A stretch of DNA of 64,000 nucleotides from Aestuariivivens sediminicola (GTDB lineage Bacteria; Bacteroidota; Bacteroidia; Flavobacteriales; Flavobacteriaceae): contig NZ_JAKMCM010000001.1 of assembly GCF_022662015.1 (NCBI RefSeq), positions 620,001 to 684,000 on the forward strand. The letters are read 5' to 3'. How positions within the stretch are numbered: the stretch's first letter is position 1; each line of letters starts with the position of its first letter. The position numbers were made by a program, and so were the translations under genes. Positions 48,997 through 55,181 of this stretch are shown in pieces. Under the pieces are notes generated by a model, which saw only the letters and a list, made by a program, of their open reading frames with translations, did no database searches and was not told where the DNA came from.

Positions 48997-49331
48997 TATT
49001 GCCTTTATTGGGATTACCGCATTACATTTTTTAGATGTAGGCCAAACATCCTCATGCCCCGCTCATTCCTTTGAAATTTCATAAGCAGGGGAATGCAAAA
49101 TTGTCCTGTGAATTTTTTAAATTGTCCTGTGAATTTTCAAAATTCACAGGACAATTTGGATGAATTGCAGTTACAAAATGAAAATACCTTAGTCAGGACT
49201 TTTACCAGCGGTGCCCATGATTGTCCTTTTTACAGGCCTTGAACCCTGAACTGCAATGTAAGAAGGCATCATGCATTCCTGCCAATTACGCAAGATACAA
49301 GGGTTATTGTGACAAACATTATACATTTTCA
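48997..49331. other. 335-base intergenic region between convergent genes
   Basis: Non-coding gap between the small lipoprotein (plus) and the TonB receptor (minus). Its only clear structure is the three-copy repeat at 49097-49157; the remaining bases show no frame, promoter or known RNA that I can recognise. Confidence 0.5.
49097..49157. repeat. Three-copy direct/inverted repeat
   Basis: A 17-19-base unit occurs twice in direct order (49097-49116 and 49119-49137) and once inverted (49139-49157). The last two form a 17-pair perfect hairpin (49119-49135 with 49141-49157) around a five-base loop. There is no T-run, so simple termination is not obvious. It sits between convergent genes. Confidence 0.75.
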
Positions 49332-51464
49332 CTAAAACTGTAATGTTATCCCAATCAAAAAATTGGTTGTGGCCTGAGGGTAATATCCCGCCCCCTCAAT
49401 GGTCATGATTTCATTCGGATTGGACCATGTATCCTCATAGGTATAATAATACCCGTTGGATACGTACTTCTTATTAAAAATATTATTAACCAGCCCGGAA
49501 AGGACAACAGATTTAAACATCTTTTTAGGATCAATGCGATAGGACAGATTAAAATCATTTATAAAATAACTGTCTAATTTTGAAGCAGGCGAATCGACAT
49601 TGCCCATATACTGCTCACCCACATATTTACTCAACAAAGCCAATTGTACATTTTTTACCGGTACAAAGCTGATGGTGTTTCCGAAGACTATTCCAGGAGA
49701 AAAGGAGATATTGGTATCGCCTAAATCTACCAGTGAACCATCAACTGAAGCTCTGTAATTTTTATTCTTGTTCGTACTTAATGCAAGATTGGTAGTTATA
49801 GAGATCGCATCGGTCAACTTAATATTGGCATCCAGTTCAAGTCCAAGGCGATAACTCTTTCCGCTTGTAGCCCTAACAGGGCTTCCAACATCATCAAGTG
49901 CTCCGGTTAATACCAATTGATTCTGATAAAACATGTAATACAGGTTAGTATTAACCGTCACTCCTTCAGTGCGATACCGCCATCCCAATTCGATATCGTT
50001 AAGGGTTTCATTCTCGGTGACACCGGCTTTAAAATCATCGCGATTAGGTTCTCTGTTGGCCCGGGCAAAAGAAGTATAAAAACTATGGTTTACCAATGGC
50101 TTGTAGGTTAATCCAATCTTTGGATTAAAAAACTCAAATTTGGCATCCGTTATAAAAACCGCCCTATCGGAGTTGATGCCATTTGTTTTATAGCTAACAA
50201 AACGTCCCTGTAAATCGATAAAGCCCGTTAACTTGTCCGTTACCCTGATGTTCATCTTCGAAAACACACTAAAATCATTTTTATTGGCATCCCCATCGTA
50301 ATAACGGTCTCTGATCCTCGTATTTGGCGCCAGGTCGGATCCCCAAATCACCTCACCAAAATGATCGCCGATATAGTTGCTGAAAGAGATTCCCGAAATG
50401 ACTTCAACTCCAGGGCGCTTATAGGTGATGTCGGCATTGGCCACATAGAAGTGGTTATCCAACCAGCGGCGAACAATGACATCGGACCCATCCTGAATTA
50501 AATTATCAAAATCTACAGCCGTTTCTTCTGCCTTGTACTGCTCGAAATACCCTTTACCTCTGGTGTAGTTCAGACCGATATGTGTAGACCAATTTGCATC
50601 CAGCTGTTCATTCCAATGGAGCTGGTAATGGTCCTGCCAATAGTTATCGGTTTCATTCTCGTAGGTGTACGGATTCTGACGACGATCTTCCTCCAGCTGT
50701 TCTGCCGTCAGCCCAAACCAGGCCTGATAGGTCTGTTCTTTGTTTCCAAAGGTCAATGCTTTAATAAGGGTATTGGCATCCTTATAGACCCCTTGGAGGA
50801 AATAGGATTTTAAATCGGTAAAGGCGCGATCGACATAACCATCGGAATAAATTTTGGAGAAACGCCCCGAGAATTCAAAATGCTCATTCAACAGACCGGT
50901 ACTCATTTTTACGGTATGCTTGCGGGTATTATAGCTGCCGAAGCTATTCGAAATTTCGGCAAAGGCGGTTTCAGAAAAGGCATCGGTCAGTACATTTAAA
51001 CTTGCACCAAAAGCTCCGGAACCGTTGGTTGAGGTCCCTACACCACGTTGCAGCTGCAAACTTTCCGTAGATGATGCGAAATCACCTAAATTTACCCAAA
51101 AGGTGCCCTGACTTTCCGGATCGTTGTATGGAATACCATTGATGGTTACGTTAACTCGTGTTGCATCGGTACCACGGACTCGAATTCCGGTATAACCCAC
51201 TCCTGCTCCGGCATCGCTGGTGGTTACAACAGACGGCAAATAATTTAACAAGATGGGCATGTCCTGCCCTAAGTTACGCTTTGCCAAAGCCTCTTTAGAA
51301 ATATTGGAATGGGTAATCGGCGATTGATCCTTCACACGGACGGCCTTAACCAATACCTCATCCAGACGTTCCGTCTGTGTTGAATCCTGCTCAGCCTGAT
51401 ACTGTTGCGCCATACTGGGACCGGATAGTACGAAAAGCGTTAGAAAAAGAAAGACGTTTTTCAT
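49332..51464 (-). CDS. TonB-dependent receptor, probable thiamine uptake
   Basis: This is an outer-membrane receptor of about 710 residues from ATG 51464 (the longer frame starts within the riboswitch region and was rejected). A signal peptide ends in SMAQ. The plug domain has VRVKDQSPITHSNIS, TGIRVRGTDATRVNVTINGIPYNDPE and LQRGVGTSTNGSGAFG; the barrel ends in aromatic F (IGITLQF). The TPP riboswitch directly upstream implies control by thiamine pyrophosphate, so the likely ligand is thiamine or a precursor, as known for Bacteroidota THI-box receptors. Iron complexes are less likely. Confidence 0.85.
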   Translation of the reverse strand: MKNVFLFLTLFVLSGPSMAQQYQAEQDSTQTERLDEVLVKAVRVKDQSPITHSNISKEALAKRNLGQDMPILLNYLPSVVTTSDAGAGVGYTGIRVRGTDATRVNVTINGIPYNDPESQGTFWVNLGDFASSTESLQLQRGVGTSTNGSGAFGASLNVLTDAFSETAFAEISNSFGSYNTRKHTVKMSTGLLNEHFEFSGRFSKIYSDGYVDRAFTDLKSYFLQGVYKDANTLIKALTFGNKEQTYQAWFGLTAEQLEEDRRQNPYTYENETDNYWQDHYQLHWNEQLDANWSTHIGLNYTRGKGYFEQYKAEETAVDFDNLIQDGSDVIVRRWLDNHFYVANADITYKRPGVEVISGISFSNYIGDHFGEVIWGSDLAPNTRIRDRYYDGDANKNDFSVFSKMNIRVTDKLTGFIDLQGRFVSYKTNGINSDRAVFITDAKFEFFNPKIGLTYKPLVNHSFYTSFARANREPNRDDFKAGVTENETLNDIELGWRYRTEGVTVNTNLYYMFYQNQLVLTGALDDVGSPVRATSGKSYRLGLELDANIKLTDAISITTNLALSTNKNKNYRASVDGSLVDLGDTNISFSPGIVFGNTISFVPVKNVQLALLSKYVGEQYMGNVDSPASKLDSYFINDFNLSYRIDPKKMFKSVVLSGLVNNIFNKKYVSNGYYYTYEDTWSNPNEIMTIEGAGYYPQATTNFLIGITLQF

Positions 51465-51580: not shown

Positions 51581-51589
51581 ATGCCTTCT

Positions 51590-51672
51590 TTACGCTATTC
51601 CCTAAACAGCATTACCTGTTCTAGGTTCAATGGGTCTGATCTCAGCCGATTTCTGGCACCCCTTTAGAGAAC
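51590..51672 (-). promoter_or_regulatory. TPP (THI-box) riboswitch
   Basis: Read on the minus strand the core motifs are in order: GGGGTGCC (51662-51655), a small P3 hairpin GCC/GGC, CTGAGA, ACCC, GAACCT, AGGTAATGC and TAGGGAA (51604-51598). This is the classical thiamine-pyrophosphate aptamer. A TACATTTG -7 box (51684-51677) places the transcript start at its edge. TPP binding is expected to turn the receptor gene off. Confidence 0.93.
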
Positions 51673-51676
51673 GGAG

Positions 51677-51726: not shown

Positions 51727-52113
51727 CTATGGAAGTTCAGGTGGCTTTCTGAATTCCTTTTTGTCGGATTGTTTTTGTTTGTTTTTGAGTCGCTTTGTAA
51801 TCGCCGATTTAGGGACTTTTGTAGAAATTCTTTTTTTTGGTTTTTCCAGAGCTGACTCTAATAAGGCCATAAAACGCCTTGTAACAATGGTTTTATTTTT
51901 GTGTTGGCTTCGGCTCTCATCGCTCTGCAGGATCAATAGTCCGTCCTTTGATATTCTTTTTTTCAGTTTCTTGAGCAGCAGCAGCTTCTGTTCGTCATTA
52001 AAGGCGGCCGAGGCATTTAAATCGAAAACCAACGCCACCTTTGTTGATGTTTTATTGACATGTTGCCCACCGCTACCTGAACTTCTAACCGCTTTAAAAG
52101 TTAGCTCTTGCAT
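51727..52113 (-). CDS. arfB: Peptidyl-tRNA hydrolase ArfB (ribosome rescue)
   Basis: This is a 128-residue RF-like hydrolase from ATG 52113 (TTG 52137 would add eight residues). It carries the catalytic GGQ at 15-17 in SSGSGGQHVNKT, as in ArfB/YaeJ. The C-terminal tail is strongly basic (KKRISTKVPKSAITKRLKNKQKQ), which enters the empty mRNA channel of stalled ribosomes. It is the last gene before the riboswitch. Confidence 0.93.
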   Translation of the reverse strand: MQELTFKAVRSSGSGGQHVNKTSTKVALVFDLNASAAFNDEQKLLLLKKLKKRISKDGLLILQSDESRSQHKNKTIVTRRFMALLESALEKPKKRISTKVPKSAITKRLKNKQKQSDKKEFRKPPELP

Positions 52114-52213
52114 GACCTTATGTTCCCATGTGCTCAATTTCCAGAATTTTGTAATTAGGTAAGGTCAGGGTAAACCATTACAGGATTACTGACATGTTGT
52201 GAAATTTCCATTT

Positions 52214-53767
52214 TCAGAGGTGTTGATGGGGTGCTTTCAGTAAATCATTAACCGTTTTAACCGGGTTAAAGGTGATTATAGGCACTTCTACAAACACCGA
52301 ATTCCAATGTGCCATACCCCCATTCCAGAGACCGGGTCGTTCTAACACCTTAATATCAGTATCGAATCTGGACTTCACCGTTACAAAATAGGCCTCTTCA
52401 TCAACAAAGTCTTTAAGGTTAAACACCTCTCCTTTATAATTCTTTATGCCACATACAAAATCGGTAGGGTTAAAATGTGTCGCATTCTTAACAATCGTGT
52501 TCTGTGTATCATCCTTTAAATTGATTTGAGCAAACTCAACAATCTGCAAAGAGCGGTTTCCATTGTTATCCTGCACCCAAAACGGACCTCCACCAGGCTC
52601 TTTCTCATTCTTTACAATTCCGCCTACACGTATGGGTCGGTCGAGTCGATTTTTCAAAAACGCAATTTTATCCTTTAAAGGCAGCCCTGAAAGCGCATCA
52701 CCAATATCCAGGTTGAAGGTGTCTTTTAAAAATTCAAGTATGCGTTCTGCACTTTCTTCGTTGACATCACCCTGATCAATGGCCTTCAAAAAATCGAAGG
52801 CTTTCCCTTGTATCTCAATTAAAACCCCACCCAACACTTTTTTATACCAGGCTAATTCTTCATGATGCTTCGAAACGGTAACATTATCAATATTTTTAAT
52901 AAAAATAATATCGTAGTCAAGGGCATTTAAATTTTCCAATAAGGCCCCATGTCCGGATGCCCTGAACAACAATTTACCATCAGGTTCCCTGTATAAGGCG
53001 TTATCCAATGTAAGGGTAATGGTATCTGTAAACTTTTTTTGATTTGAAAAGGACACACTGAATTTTGTTTTCGTCTGCTTTTCAACATCTTCTTCAATAT
53101 ATTTAAATTCGTCGTCGAATATCTTGTTATGATCCGGTGAAATGGTGAAATGCAAATGCGCCGTCTTATTCGACATGGCGTAGAGAGCGGCTTCAAACAG
53201 ATGTTCTTCGAATGCGGTAGCCACATGCTGTTTATACCTGTGAAACGGCAGGAGCCCTTTGGGGAAGGAGCTGTAATTCAAACGGTTTTCATCGAGCATG
53301 GTTTTAATGAACTCTAACCGTTTCTTATCGTAGGAAAACGCGTTAAAATCGGAAAAAATCTCATGCAATCGGTGCACCACATCCTCGAAAAAAGGCAGTT
53401 TCTCCAAACCTGCAAAAAAAATGGCAAGCCCGGAATGCTTGTGCTTATTGATATAAGCATTGATCGTATCCCTTTCCGGATCGAAAGTCTTTAAAAACTG
53501 AAATAAGAATTTGAACATTCTGGTGGCAGCACCCGAGGCAGGTACAAATTTTACCATGGATAAGCGGTTACGATGGTCTTCAAAAACAGACACATAGCGG
53601 TTTTGGGTTTCCTCAGACAGCCTTAGAATACCATCGCCAACAGTTGCCGCCTTTACCAAATTGGTATATGAAACACCCTTTTTTATCATGTCGATCTGCC
53701 CTGTTACCGCTTCGGGTGTTAATCCAATTTCTCGAATTTGAGTACTATCTTTATCTGTGAATTTCAA
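52214..53767 (-). CDS. DUF4301 protein
   Basis: This is a 517-residue cytosolic protein of Bacteroidota family DUF4301 with no membrane helix or signal peptide. Motif-like regions are FVPASGAATRMFKFL (about 87-101) and FWVQDNNGNRSLQIVEFAQ, both reminiscent of nucleotidyltransferases acting on sugar or nucleotide substrates; function is unknown. Starts at TTG 53767 (no other start fits), overlapping the kinase end by 17 bases. Its place next to the kinase and PnuC-like transporter suggests vitamin or nucleotide metabolism. Confidence 0.75.
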   Translation of the reverse strand: MKFTDKDSTQIREIGLTPEAVTGQIDMIKKGVSYTNLVKAATVGDGILRLSEETQNRYVSVFEDHRNRLSMVKFVPASGAATRMFKFLFQFLKTFDPERDTINAYINKHKHSGLAIFFAGLEKLPFFEDVVHRLHEIFSDFNAFSYDKKRLEFIKTMLDENRLNYSSFPKGLLPFHRYKQHVATAFEEHLFEAALYAMSNKTAHLHFTISPDHNKIFDDEFKYIEEDVEKQTKTKFSVSFSNQKKFTDTITLTLDNALYREPDGKLLFRASGHGALLENLNALDYDIIFIKNIDNVTVSKHHEELAWYKKVLGGVLIEIQGKAFDFLKAIDQGDVNEESAERILEFLKDTFNLDIGDALSGLPLKDKIAFLKNRLDRPIRVGGIVKNEKEPGGGPFWVQDNNGNRSLQIVEFAQINLKDDTQNTIVKNATHFNPTDFVCGIKNYKGEVFNLKDFVDEEAYFVTVKSRFDTDIKVLERPGLWNGGMAHWNSVFVEVPIITFNPVKTVNDLLKAPHQHL

Positions 53768-54344
53768 TACCTTTTTTCTTTAATAACGCATCAACATGTT
53801 TTACAGCAGTATCTAAACGCTCCTTCTTACTGCCTTTCAATAATACGTATGGTCTGTTTTGCTTAATTAACTCATTTTGAAATGCCCTAAACATTTCCAT
53901 CCTATGGTTGGGCTTATCCCTCAAGTCGTCAGCTTCCCACGGGGTATCAATATATGTTAAAAAATATAAATCATAGGTATTTTCCAAGGCATATTTTTCA
54001 AGTATCGGATCACAACTACCCAAATAATAGGCCTCCGAATACACTTTGGTTTCCAACAGATCGGTGTCACAAATCAAGACCGTATCTGTTTTTTTGGCCA
54101 GTTCGTTTTCCAATCGCATTTGGCCTCTTGCTATCGGCAATAAATCCTCCGCCTCACAGGTCTTGCGCTCGTTATTCCATTTGTTCTGAAGGTATTCACG
54201 GGCATATTCCGGCACCCATATGGAATTGTAATGTCTTGCCAGTTGTCTTGATAATGTTGTTTTGCCCGTCGATTCGGGACCAAATAAAACAACCTTGATA
54301 CAGTTTATCCCGATGTCCCGGGATTGTTTAAGTTCTTCTTCCAT
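53751..54344 (-). CDS. NadR-like P-loop kinase (possible vitamin kinase)
   Basis: This is a 197-residue P-loop ATPase from ATG 54344. Walker A is GPESTGKT at 22-29 and WVPEYAREYLQ (43-53) is the NadR-type segment of ribosylnicotinamide kinases. It overlaps the end of the PnuC-like gene by 40 bases. PnuC substrates need phosphorylation to be trapped, so this is the trapping kinase: nicotinamide riboside by homology, or thiamine by context (YkoF-like protein and TPP-controlled receptor alongside). Which one is open. Confidence 0.75.
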   Translation of the reverse strand: MEEELKQSRDIGINCIKVVLFGPESTGKTTLSRQLARHYNSIWVPEYAREYLQNKWNNERKTCEAEDLLPIARGQMRLENELAKKTDTVLICDTDLLETKVYSEAYYLGSCDPILEKYALENTYDLYFLTYIDTPWEADDLRDKPNHRMEMFRAFQNELIKQNRPYVLLKGSKKERLDTAVKHVDALLKKKGIEIHR

Positions 54345-54937
54345 GCTAAATACCCTTGTATTGCCAATACTGTAAAGATAAGATACTGTAACGATAACAT
54401 CCCCCAACCCCTGTATGCATAGAGTGGTACGGTAATTATATCTGCAAGTATCCACAGCGTCCAGTTTTCGAGTTTTTTATTCGCCATAAACCACATGGCC
54501 GTGAAAAATACACCTGATGTAAAAATATCGATGTAATTTGATGAATTGATCTCGGTACCATAGGCCCTGTAGACGATATAGGTTACAACCATAGTGAGTA
54601 TGAACATCCCAAAACCAATTATTTTCTCTTTTGTGTTTGTCCTGGAAATGGGAACGACATAGGTGTCTTCCTTTTTTCGAGACCAGTTCCACCAACCATA
54701 TATACTCATTACCGAGTAATAAAAATTCATCATCATGTCGCCCATTAATTCATCTTTCAAAAAGATGTAAACAGTTATTACAGTGGCAACAAGGCCTGTT
54801 GGATAGACCAAAATATTTGCTTTTTTTGCATAGACCACGCTCGCAATGCCAAAGAAAAAGGCAATGGCCTCCAACACGATTAAATAGCCTGGTCTGTTGT
54901 AATATGGTTCTAAAAAGAAATCAAAAATGGGGTTCAT
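54305..54937 (-). CDS. PnuC-family transporter (possible PnuT)
   Basis: This is a 210-residue membrane protein with about seven helices and the PnuC-family tryptophan motif WWNW at 82-85. PnuC carries nicotinamide riboside and PnuT carries thiamine; both are facilitators that rely on intracellular phosphorylation. The gene lies between a YkoF-like thiamine-binding protein (17-base overlap) and a P-loop kinase (40-base overlap). Context favours thiamine; the sequence alone cannot decide. Confidence 0.8.
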   Translation of the reverse strand: MNPIFDFFLEPYYNRPGYLIVLEAIAFFFGIASVVYAKKANILVYPTGLVATVITVYIFLKDELMGDMMMNFYYSVMSIYGWWNWSRKKEDTYVVPISRTNTKEKIIGFGMFILTMVVTYIVYRAYGTEINSSNYIDIFTSGVFFTAMWFMANKKLENWTLWILADIITVPLYAYRGWGMLSLQYLIFTVLAIQGYLAWKKNLNNPGTSG

Positions 54938-55181
54938 AATTATGTCGGTCCGATTTCACAATTTTCATATATAACAACCCGCGTTCTATTAGTTCGAACG
55001 CCTCTTTAATTTCTTGAGTAAGCAGTTGCATGACAACATCATAATCGCCATAGACCTGGGTGCTTAAAGGGTTTTCCAACACCTTCAAGCCGGAGTTTCT
55101 CAATTTTTTAATGAAATGGATTATGGCCGGTTCAAAATCGTCCTGCAAAGGGGTTAAAGTTAATTCTACTGATATCTTCAT
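54921..55181 (-). CDS. YkoF/MTH1187-like thiamine-binding protein
   Basis: This is an 86-residue protein of the thiamine/hydroxymethylpyrimidine-binding (YkoF, DUF77) type. The opening MKISVELTLTPLQDDFEPAI and the paired helix/strand pattern ending in ERGLLYMKIVKSDR match the fold. From the ATG at 55181; earlier ATGs at 55196 and 55199 are possible. It is followed by the PnuC-like gene with a 17-base overlap. It may buffer or deliver thiamine or HMP in the cytosol. Confidence 0.7.
   Translation of the reverse strand: MKISVELTLTPLQDDFEPAIIHFIKKLRNSGLKVLENPLSTQVYGDYDVVMQLLTQEIKEAFELIERGLLYMKIVKSDRHNYEPHF

Follow-up and report, generated by a model that had tools for sequence, protein, structure and literature searches.

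The locus

A candidate thiamine salvage operon is described here from the flavobacterium Aestuariivivens sediminicola. It lies within a stretch of 64,000 nucleotides (the window; positions 620,001 to 684,000 of contig NZ_JAKMCM010000001.1), to which all coordinates refer. Four consecutive genes encode a small, YkoF-type Thiamine_BP protein, a PnuC-family channel, a stand-alone NadR-like P-loop kinase, hereafter KIN, and a DUF4301 protein. These are followed by a thiamine pyrophosphate (TPP) riboswitch aptamer and a TonB-dependent receptor (Table 1). In a preliminary description of this DNA, the four genes were taken to overlap and to form a thiamine uptake-and-trap module. The overlaps are confirmed at 17 nt (54921–54937), 40 nt (54305–54344) and 17 nt (53751–53767), and the coordinates, minus strand and Pfam assignments all check out.

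Table 1. Features of the candidate thiamine salvage locus in window coordinates
Feature	Position	Strand	Score
Thiamine_BP (PF01910, YkoF-type), small, 86 aa	54921..55181	-	Pfam 29.4 bits, cut-off 24.9
Channel of the PnuC family, 210 aa, a probable PnuT (thiamine)	54305..54937	-	PF04973 176.4 bits
KIN, NadR-like P-loop kinase, proposed thiamine kinase, 197 aa	53751..54344	-	PF13521 (AAA_28) 144.1 bits, gathering cut-off 27
DUF4301, UDP-sugar-pyrophosphorylase-like predicted fold, 517 aa, TTG start	52214..53767	-	PF14134 652.6 bits
ArfB ribosome-rescue hydrolase, probable bystander	51727..52137	-	NCBIfam PRK09256 123.5 bits, cut-off 100
TPP riboswitch aptamer 5' of receptor	51582..51673	-	RF00059 46.9 bits, gathering 54.3
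TonB-dependent receptor (ATG taken as start), a probable counterpart of OMthi	49332..51464	-	PF00593 and PF07715 over cut-off

The aptamer is below its Rfam gathering score but reaches an E-value of 6.5e-8 genome-wide, and nothing else in the genome matches the TPP model at E <= 0.001. Its position is conserved in relatives. It is located 5' of the receptor gene and 3' of both the DUF4301 and ArfB genes and therefore does not head the four genes. Consequently, control of the four genes by a TPP element was rejected for this genome.

Thiamine genes of the host

Profile searches of the genome, which has a stated completeness of 100%, revealed no ThiC, no PF02581 protein (and thus no ThiE) and no thiamine pyrophosphokinase (TPK), for which the domain PF04263 gave no genome-wide hit at E <= 0.001; YjbQ and ThiK were not searched for. 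ThiK is the thiamine kinase of E. coli and has a choline-kinase/APH-type fold that is unrelated to the P-loop fold of NadR. YjbQ is able to replace ThiE (PMC5613172). ThiL is encoded, with a score over cut-off. As ThiC, ThiE and TPK are missing, import of thiamine or its phosphates is expected, and thiamine itself would need to be phosphorylated. From its gene content, the host is probably a thiamine auxotroph.

Distribution of KIN and TPK

The distribution of KIN was followed in a panel of 80 evenly drawn genomes of the same class, Bacteroidia, each at least 95% complete and with the host's own included. KIN was called using an alignment, A2, at E <= 1e-8, and ThiE was called at a PF02581 score of at least 100 bits, which is a cut-off of our own; weaker matches are referred to as TenI-like. 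A2 comprises the window sequence and 15 of 18 KIN-like loci, leaving out L012 (in-range stop), L020 and L021. Across the panel, KIN is present in 45 genomes, TPK in 16, ThiC in 25 and ThiE in 27. Fifty-three genomes lack both ThiC and ThiE, and these are divided into 41 with KIN only, 11 with TPK only, one with neither (G030) and none with both. The Fisher p for this exclusion is 1.6e-10, a value that assumes independent genomes, which these are not. Counted by family, the same set comprises 25 families with KIN only, eight with TPK only, one with neither and none that is mixed (n = 34).

The channel follows the two kinases. Of the 60 genomes with at least one of the kinases, 59 have a PnuC-family gene over cut-off, against 1 of the 20 that have neither (a PF04973 match in G062, under cut-off, was not counted). 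ThiC is present in 19 of those 20. These patterns bear on the first alternative to a thiamine role, which takes the channel for PnuC and KIN for a kinase of nicotinamide riboside, so that an NAD salvage pair lies near a thiamine receptor by chance. Such a pair predicts neither the mutual exclusion of KIN and TPK in the 53 genomes nor the missing transporter in 19 of the 20 genomes without either kinase. In addition, KIN does not track nadC, which is present in 44 of 45 KIN genomes and in 34 of the 35 others.

Linkage to the channel, the receptor and TPP elements

In 36 of the 45 KIN genomes, a PnuC-family gene is located upstream of stand-alone KIN on the same strand, no more than 2 kb away. 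This count excludes G013, where the neighbor of the PnuC-family gene is a two-domain NadR-type protein. A TPP aptamer is found within 9 kb of KIN on the same strand in 18 of the 45; the panel search for aptamers used stricter filters and may have missed weak ones. A receptor homologue starts no more than 0.6 kb after a TPP element, on the same strand, in all 32 KIN genomes inspected (of 45), which are 14 of the 18 with an element near KIN and 18 with an element elsewhere. Eight panel genomes, all without ThiC, have a TenI-like gene (PF02581, 35–61 bits; for example L094:5807-6517) directly upstream of PnuT-KIN: G006, G018, G032, G036, G037, G057, G067 and G071. As a separate observation, a TPP element stands directly 5' of a second PnuC-family gene at L129 (G035:C1:3017454) and at G070:C10:36569, and in both genomes PnuC-KIN is located elsewhere.

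More distant loci were also informative. In ten with weaker matches (six proteobacterial, two from Bacteroidota and one each from Verrucomicrobiota and Actinomycetota), a scan at gathering thresholds found a TPP element in two, both from Burkholderiales: L079, just after KIN, and L082. The gene order on the L082 contig is TPP-receptor-PnuT-KIN. This parallels the order TPP-receptor-PnuT-TPK in L119 and L120, which is the one reported from Bacteroides (PMC5613172), so that KIN occupies the place of TPK. The TPP element is therefore upstream of PnuT in these three loci and downstream of it in the window. A TPP-headed receptor-PnuT-KIN set is again not what is expected of an NAD pair.

The channel of the window is the only PF04973 match in its genome and is homologous to the PnuT proteins that adjoin TPK in L119 and L120. 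In the channel tree, these TPK-linked proteins nest with five KIN-linked PnuC-family proteins from Salinivirgaceae, Prolixibacteraceae and two less closely named Bacteroidia, with support of 100/99. The nesting looks as if one kinase had been exchanged for the other. Taken over distribution and context, the earlier proposal that the channel and kinase serve thiamine rather than NAD is well supported.

Conservation in the nearest relatives

A scan of named genomes for KIN returned at least 52 loci, and the nearest are from Flavobacteriaceae, for example Algibacter and Winogradskyella. The 13 closest of these (L038–L050), together with L090 from panel genome G058, constitute the related set. In all 14, a PnuC-family gene precedes KIN and DUF4301 follows it; the gene order is kept in Flavobacteriaceae. 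Thiamine_BP was detected in eight. A downstream receptor homologue is present in all 12 loci with enough sequence, at a distance of about 6 kb only in L043 and L044, and an aptamer was found in 8 of 10 loci scanned (L039, L040, L043, L046–L049 and L090). Absence of linkage to the receptor or TPP elements, which had been named as grounds for abandoning the proposal, did not occur.

The overlaps are conserved to different degrees. That between Thiamine_BP and PnuC is 17 nt in seven of the eight loci in which both genes were found. The PnuC/kinase overlap is 37–49 nt in 13 of 14 loci, and in L050 the match begins within the kinase. The kinase/DUF4301 overlap is not conserved, the kinase ending from 9 nt before to 4 nt after the start of the DUF4301 match in 11 loci. 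In the remaining three (L048, L049 and L090), KIN and DUF4301 are a single open frame.

The kinase

KIN is over the AAA_28 cut-off (Table 1), and this is the sole Pfam domain in its 197 residues; no NMN adenylyltransferase domain is present. It has the P-loop residues expected of that superfamily, and G22, E24, K28, E46, D93, R142 and G171 are invariant across 46 sequences. The KIN model, which has a pLDDT of 94.8, matches NadR best and then thymidylate kinases. KIN is under the cut-offs of both NadR equivalogs (TIGR01526, 108.6 against 341.15 bits; PRK08099, 73.5 against 201 bits), and a two-domain NadR-type protein from the panel is under them as well, at 219.6 and 184.3. Like the kinase domain of NadR (PDB 1lw7, 8x7f and 6gye; PMC7221760), KIN has a P-loop kinase fold and a Pnu-channel partner. 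In contrast to NadR, KIN stands alone without the adenylyltransferase domain, is found in a thiamine context and has 21–27% identity to NadR in the fold alignments. The lack of an NMN adenylyltransferase domain also argues against the NAD pair.

A2 also detects two-domain NadR-type proteins, in G013:C3 (L012, 323 aa) and G051:C22 (L150, 352 aa). In both, the adenylyltransferase part precedes the kinase part, as confirmed by NCBIfam for the former and read from the sequence for the latter. As G013 and G051 each encode a stand-alone KIN in addition, the count of 45 stands. Among the A2 matches, only two other open frames exceed 276 aa, one at G051:C28 and the DUF4301 fusion of G058. The host encodes a second AAA_28 protein (L003), which was considered as a paralogous NadR and rejected; it is 20% identical to KIN and belongs to a different subfamily. 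A look-up of defense families returned only weak matches for KIN (E 0.006 and 0.009) and none for DUF4301.

Trees were built from sequences of at least 120 residues. A further alignment, A5, leaves out L073 and L084 (in-range stop) and many other loci. A clade specific to thiamine was not obtained from the KIN tree, and this tree alone does not decide the substrate.

The proposed pathway

From gene content, linkage, distribution and predicted folds, we infer auxotrophy, substrate, product, transport and regulation. The locus is probably a thiamine salvage operon, with KIN as a thiamine kinase of the NadR type that captures its substrate on entry through PnuT. Here, the TonB receptor, whose gene is preceded by the TPP riboswitch, would carry thiamine over the outer membrane and the PnuC-family channel would pass it through the inner membrane, with the small Thiamine_BP protein as a probable thiamine binder. 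KIN would then phosphorylate thiamine, which would be trapped, probably as thiamine monophosphate (TMP), and ThiL would convert the monophosphate to TPP. NadR- and thymidylate-type kinases transfer one phosphate, and TMP is the likelier product because these are the fold neighbors of KIN. The proposed reaction, thiamine to TMP, is the one that ThiK is known for; the fold differs.

The nearest known system is the thiamine uptake operon of Bacteroides, which consists of a TPP riboswitch, the TonB receptor OMthi, pnuT and tnr3 (PMC5613172). The two share a TPP riboswitch, a TonB receptor, PnuT and an enzyme that phosphorylates thiamine, the last being a proposal in the present case. They differ in that a NadR-like kinase is found in place of Tnr3, a TPK, and would replace it in function; that Thiamine_BP and DUF4301 are added; and that the TPP element heads the receptor only, in a host without ThiC and ThiE. 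No NadR-like thiamine kinase is proposed in the titles and abstract openings of the open-licence papers that the literature searches listed, and the name DUF4301 occurs in one paper of the collection searched. Any earlier predictions would probably be found in Rodionov and others (2002).

Evidence against the pathway and alternative explanations

Several observations weigh against this pathway, and some of these favor the NAD pair. KIN is nearest to NadR by both sequence and fold, its nearest solved relatives are NadR proteins, and the kinase domain of NadR acts on nicotinamide riboside. The channel exceeds the PnuC equivalog cut-off (TIGR01528, 85.3 against 42.45), in a model that may or may not separate PnuC from PnuT. 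In G013, the only PnuC-family gene adjoins the two-domain NadR-type protein and not the stand-alone KIN, so that the PnuC of KIN genomes is not always PnuT; a true NAD pair inside the panel is plausible here. G035, which has ThiC, carries a PnuC-KIN pair with no TPP element found up to 9 kb away, and has a TPP-PnuC elsewhere. In the KIN tree, a split supported at 99/96 places the Flavobacteriaceae branch on the side of NadR, proteobacterial kinases and a few Bacteroidota, and separates it from most Bacteroidota KIN; the tree is unrooted and bootstrap values had not settled.

The link to TPP elements is also incomplete. The aptamer is downstream of KIN in all 18 panel genomes in which the two are close, so that KIN is not headed by a TPP element there. 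No element was found on scanning the related loci L041 and L045, or at E <= 0.05 in the five KIN loci whose channels nest with TPK-linked PnuT. The kinase distribution has its exceptions as well. G030 (L147, L148) is an apparent auxotroph with a TPP-receptor and a PnuC-family gene that lacks both KIN and TPK. The two kinases occur together in G058, alone among all 80 panel genomes. TPK is found in 2 of 28 named genomes chosen for KIN, both Flavobacterium; this search took 30 of the 52 loci and covered all of these except L047 and L063. Weighed together with the distribution, the missing adenylyltransferase domain and the order in L082, the NAD pair is considered unlikely.

A second alternative retains thiamine as the substrate and changes the product: KIN would be a thiamine pyrophosphokinase that makes TPP directly, leaving ThiL dispensable. 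That KIN stands in the place of TPK is in its favor. Retention of ThiL was rejected as proof of a TMP intermediate: it is present in 80 of 80 panel genomes and therefore does not fix the product. Among these are all 11 genomes that have TPK alone and lack ThiC and ThiE, in which ThiL could be dispensable. What speaks against direct pyrophosphorylation is the transfer of a single phosphate by the fold neighbors, NadR and thymidylate kinases, which is general knowledge, and direct synthesis of TPP by KIN is judged improbable. Finally, it is very improbable that KIN acts specifically on a different compound and that its link to auxotrophy reflects shared loss in related lineages, for although presence and absence are non-independent across species and G058, L048 and L049 keep KIN, fused to DUF4301, beside TPK, the pattern extends over 34 families with none mixed, and TenI-like genes, Thiamine_BP, the receptor and TPP elements recur beside KIN.

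DUF4301

The predicted structure of DUF4301 has a pLDDT of 91.6, and its best Foldseek match is the UDP-GlcNAc pyrophosphorylase 6tn3 (E 2.8e-11, probability 1.00). There are 62 matches at E <= 0.001, to UDP-GlcNAc and UDP-glucose pyrophosphorylases, with TM scores of 0.39–0.52 by query length. The fold is similar to that of these enzymes, with 9–15% identity in the matches listed. By sequence profile, UDP-sugar pyrophosphorylases match DUF4301 only at E 0.23–0.27 and none do so at E <= 0.001. On the strength of the model, DUF4301 may be a nucleotidyltransferase-like protein that was recruited in Flavobacteriaceae.

Membership of DUF4301 in the module, part of the original proposal, is supported in that family only, as seen in the 14 related loci. 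DUF4301 is present in 11 of the 80 panel genomes and adjoins KIN in two, both of the window's family. Its neighbors were scanned in eight of the nine outside loci (L110 and L112–L118, with L111 left out) and include RelA/SpoT, PagL, Nfu, RecQ, radical SAM, dihydroorotate dehydrogenase, a MarR-type regulator and a TonB-like protein, among others, while some had no family assigned. As these show no thiamine link, DUF4301 was rejected as a general thiamine gene. The genomes in which KIN and DUF4301 form one frame (L048, L049 and G058/L090) also carry TPK, so the fusion may serve another purpose. That KIN and DUF4301 work in Flavobacteriaceae as a two-step kinase-nucleotidyltransferase, making a nucleotidylated thiamine for storage or as a signal, is conceivable and quite improbable.

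Flanking features

The genes 5' of the four encode a phosphopantetheinyl transferase and a PcrB-family geranylgeranylglyceryl phosphate synthase. Downstream of the receptor, positions 49092–49176 of the plus strand have weak matches to microRNA families and are probably a chance hairpin or a terminator.

Implications

If the proposed pathway is correct, then most of the panel's auxotroph-type genomes (41 of 53 without ThiC and ThiE) would have a relative of NAD enzymes as their thiamine kinase. To our knowledge, NAD enzymes are the only named relatives of KIN. A missing step in the salvage of vitamin B1 would be filled, and the PnuC and NadR annotations of many genomes would be corrected. DUF4301 would gain a lead based on its predicted fold. 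Thiamine exchange shapes microbial communities, and knowing which organisms trap thiamine would help predictions made from genomes.

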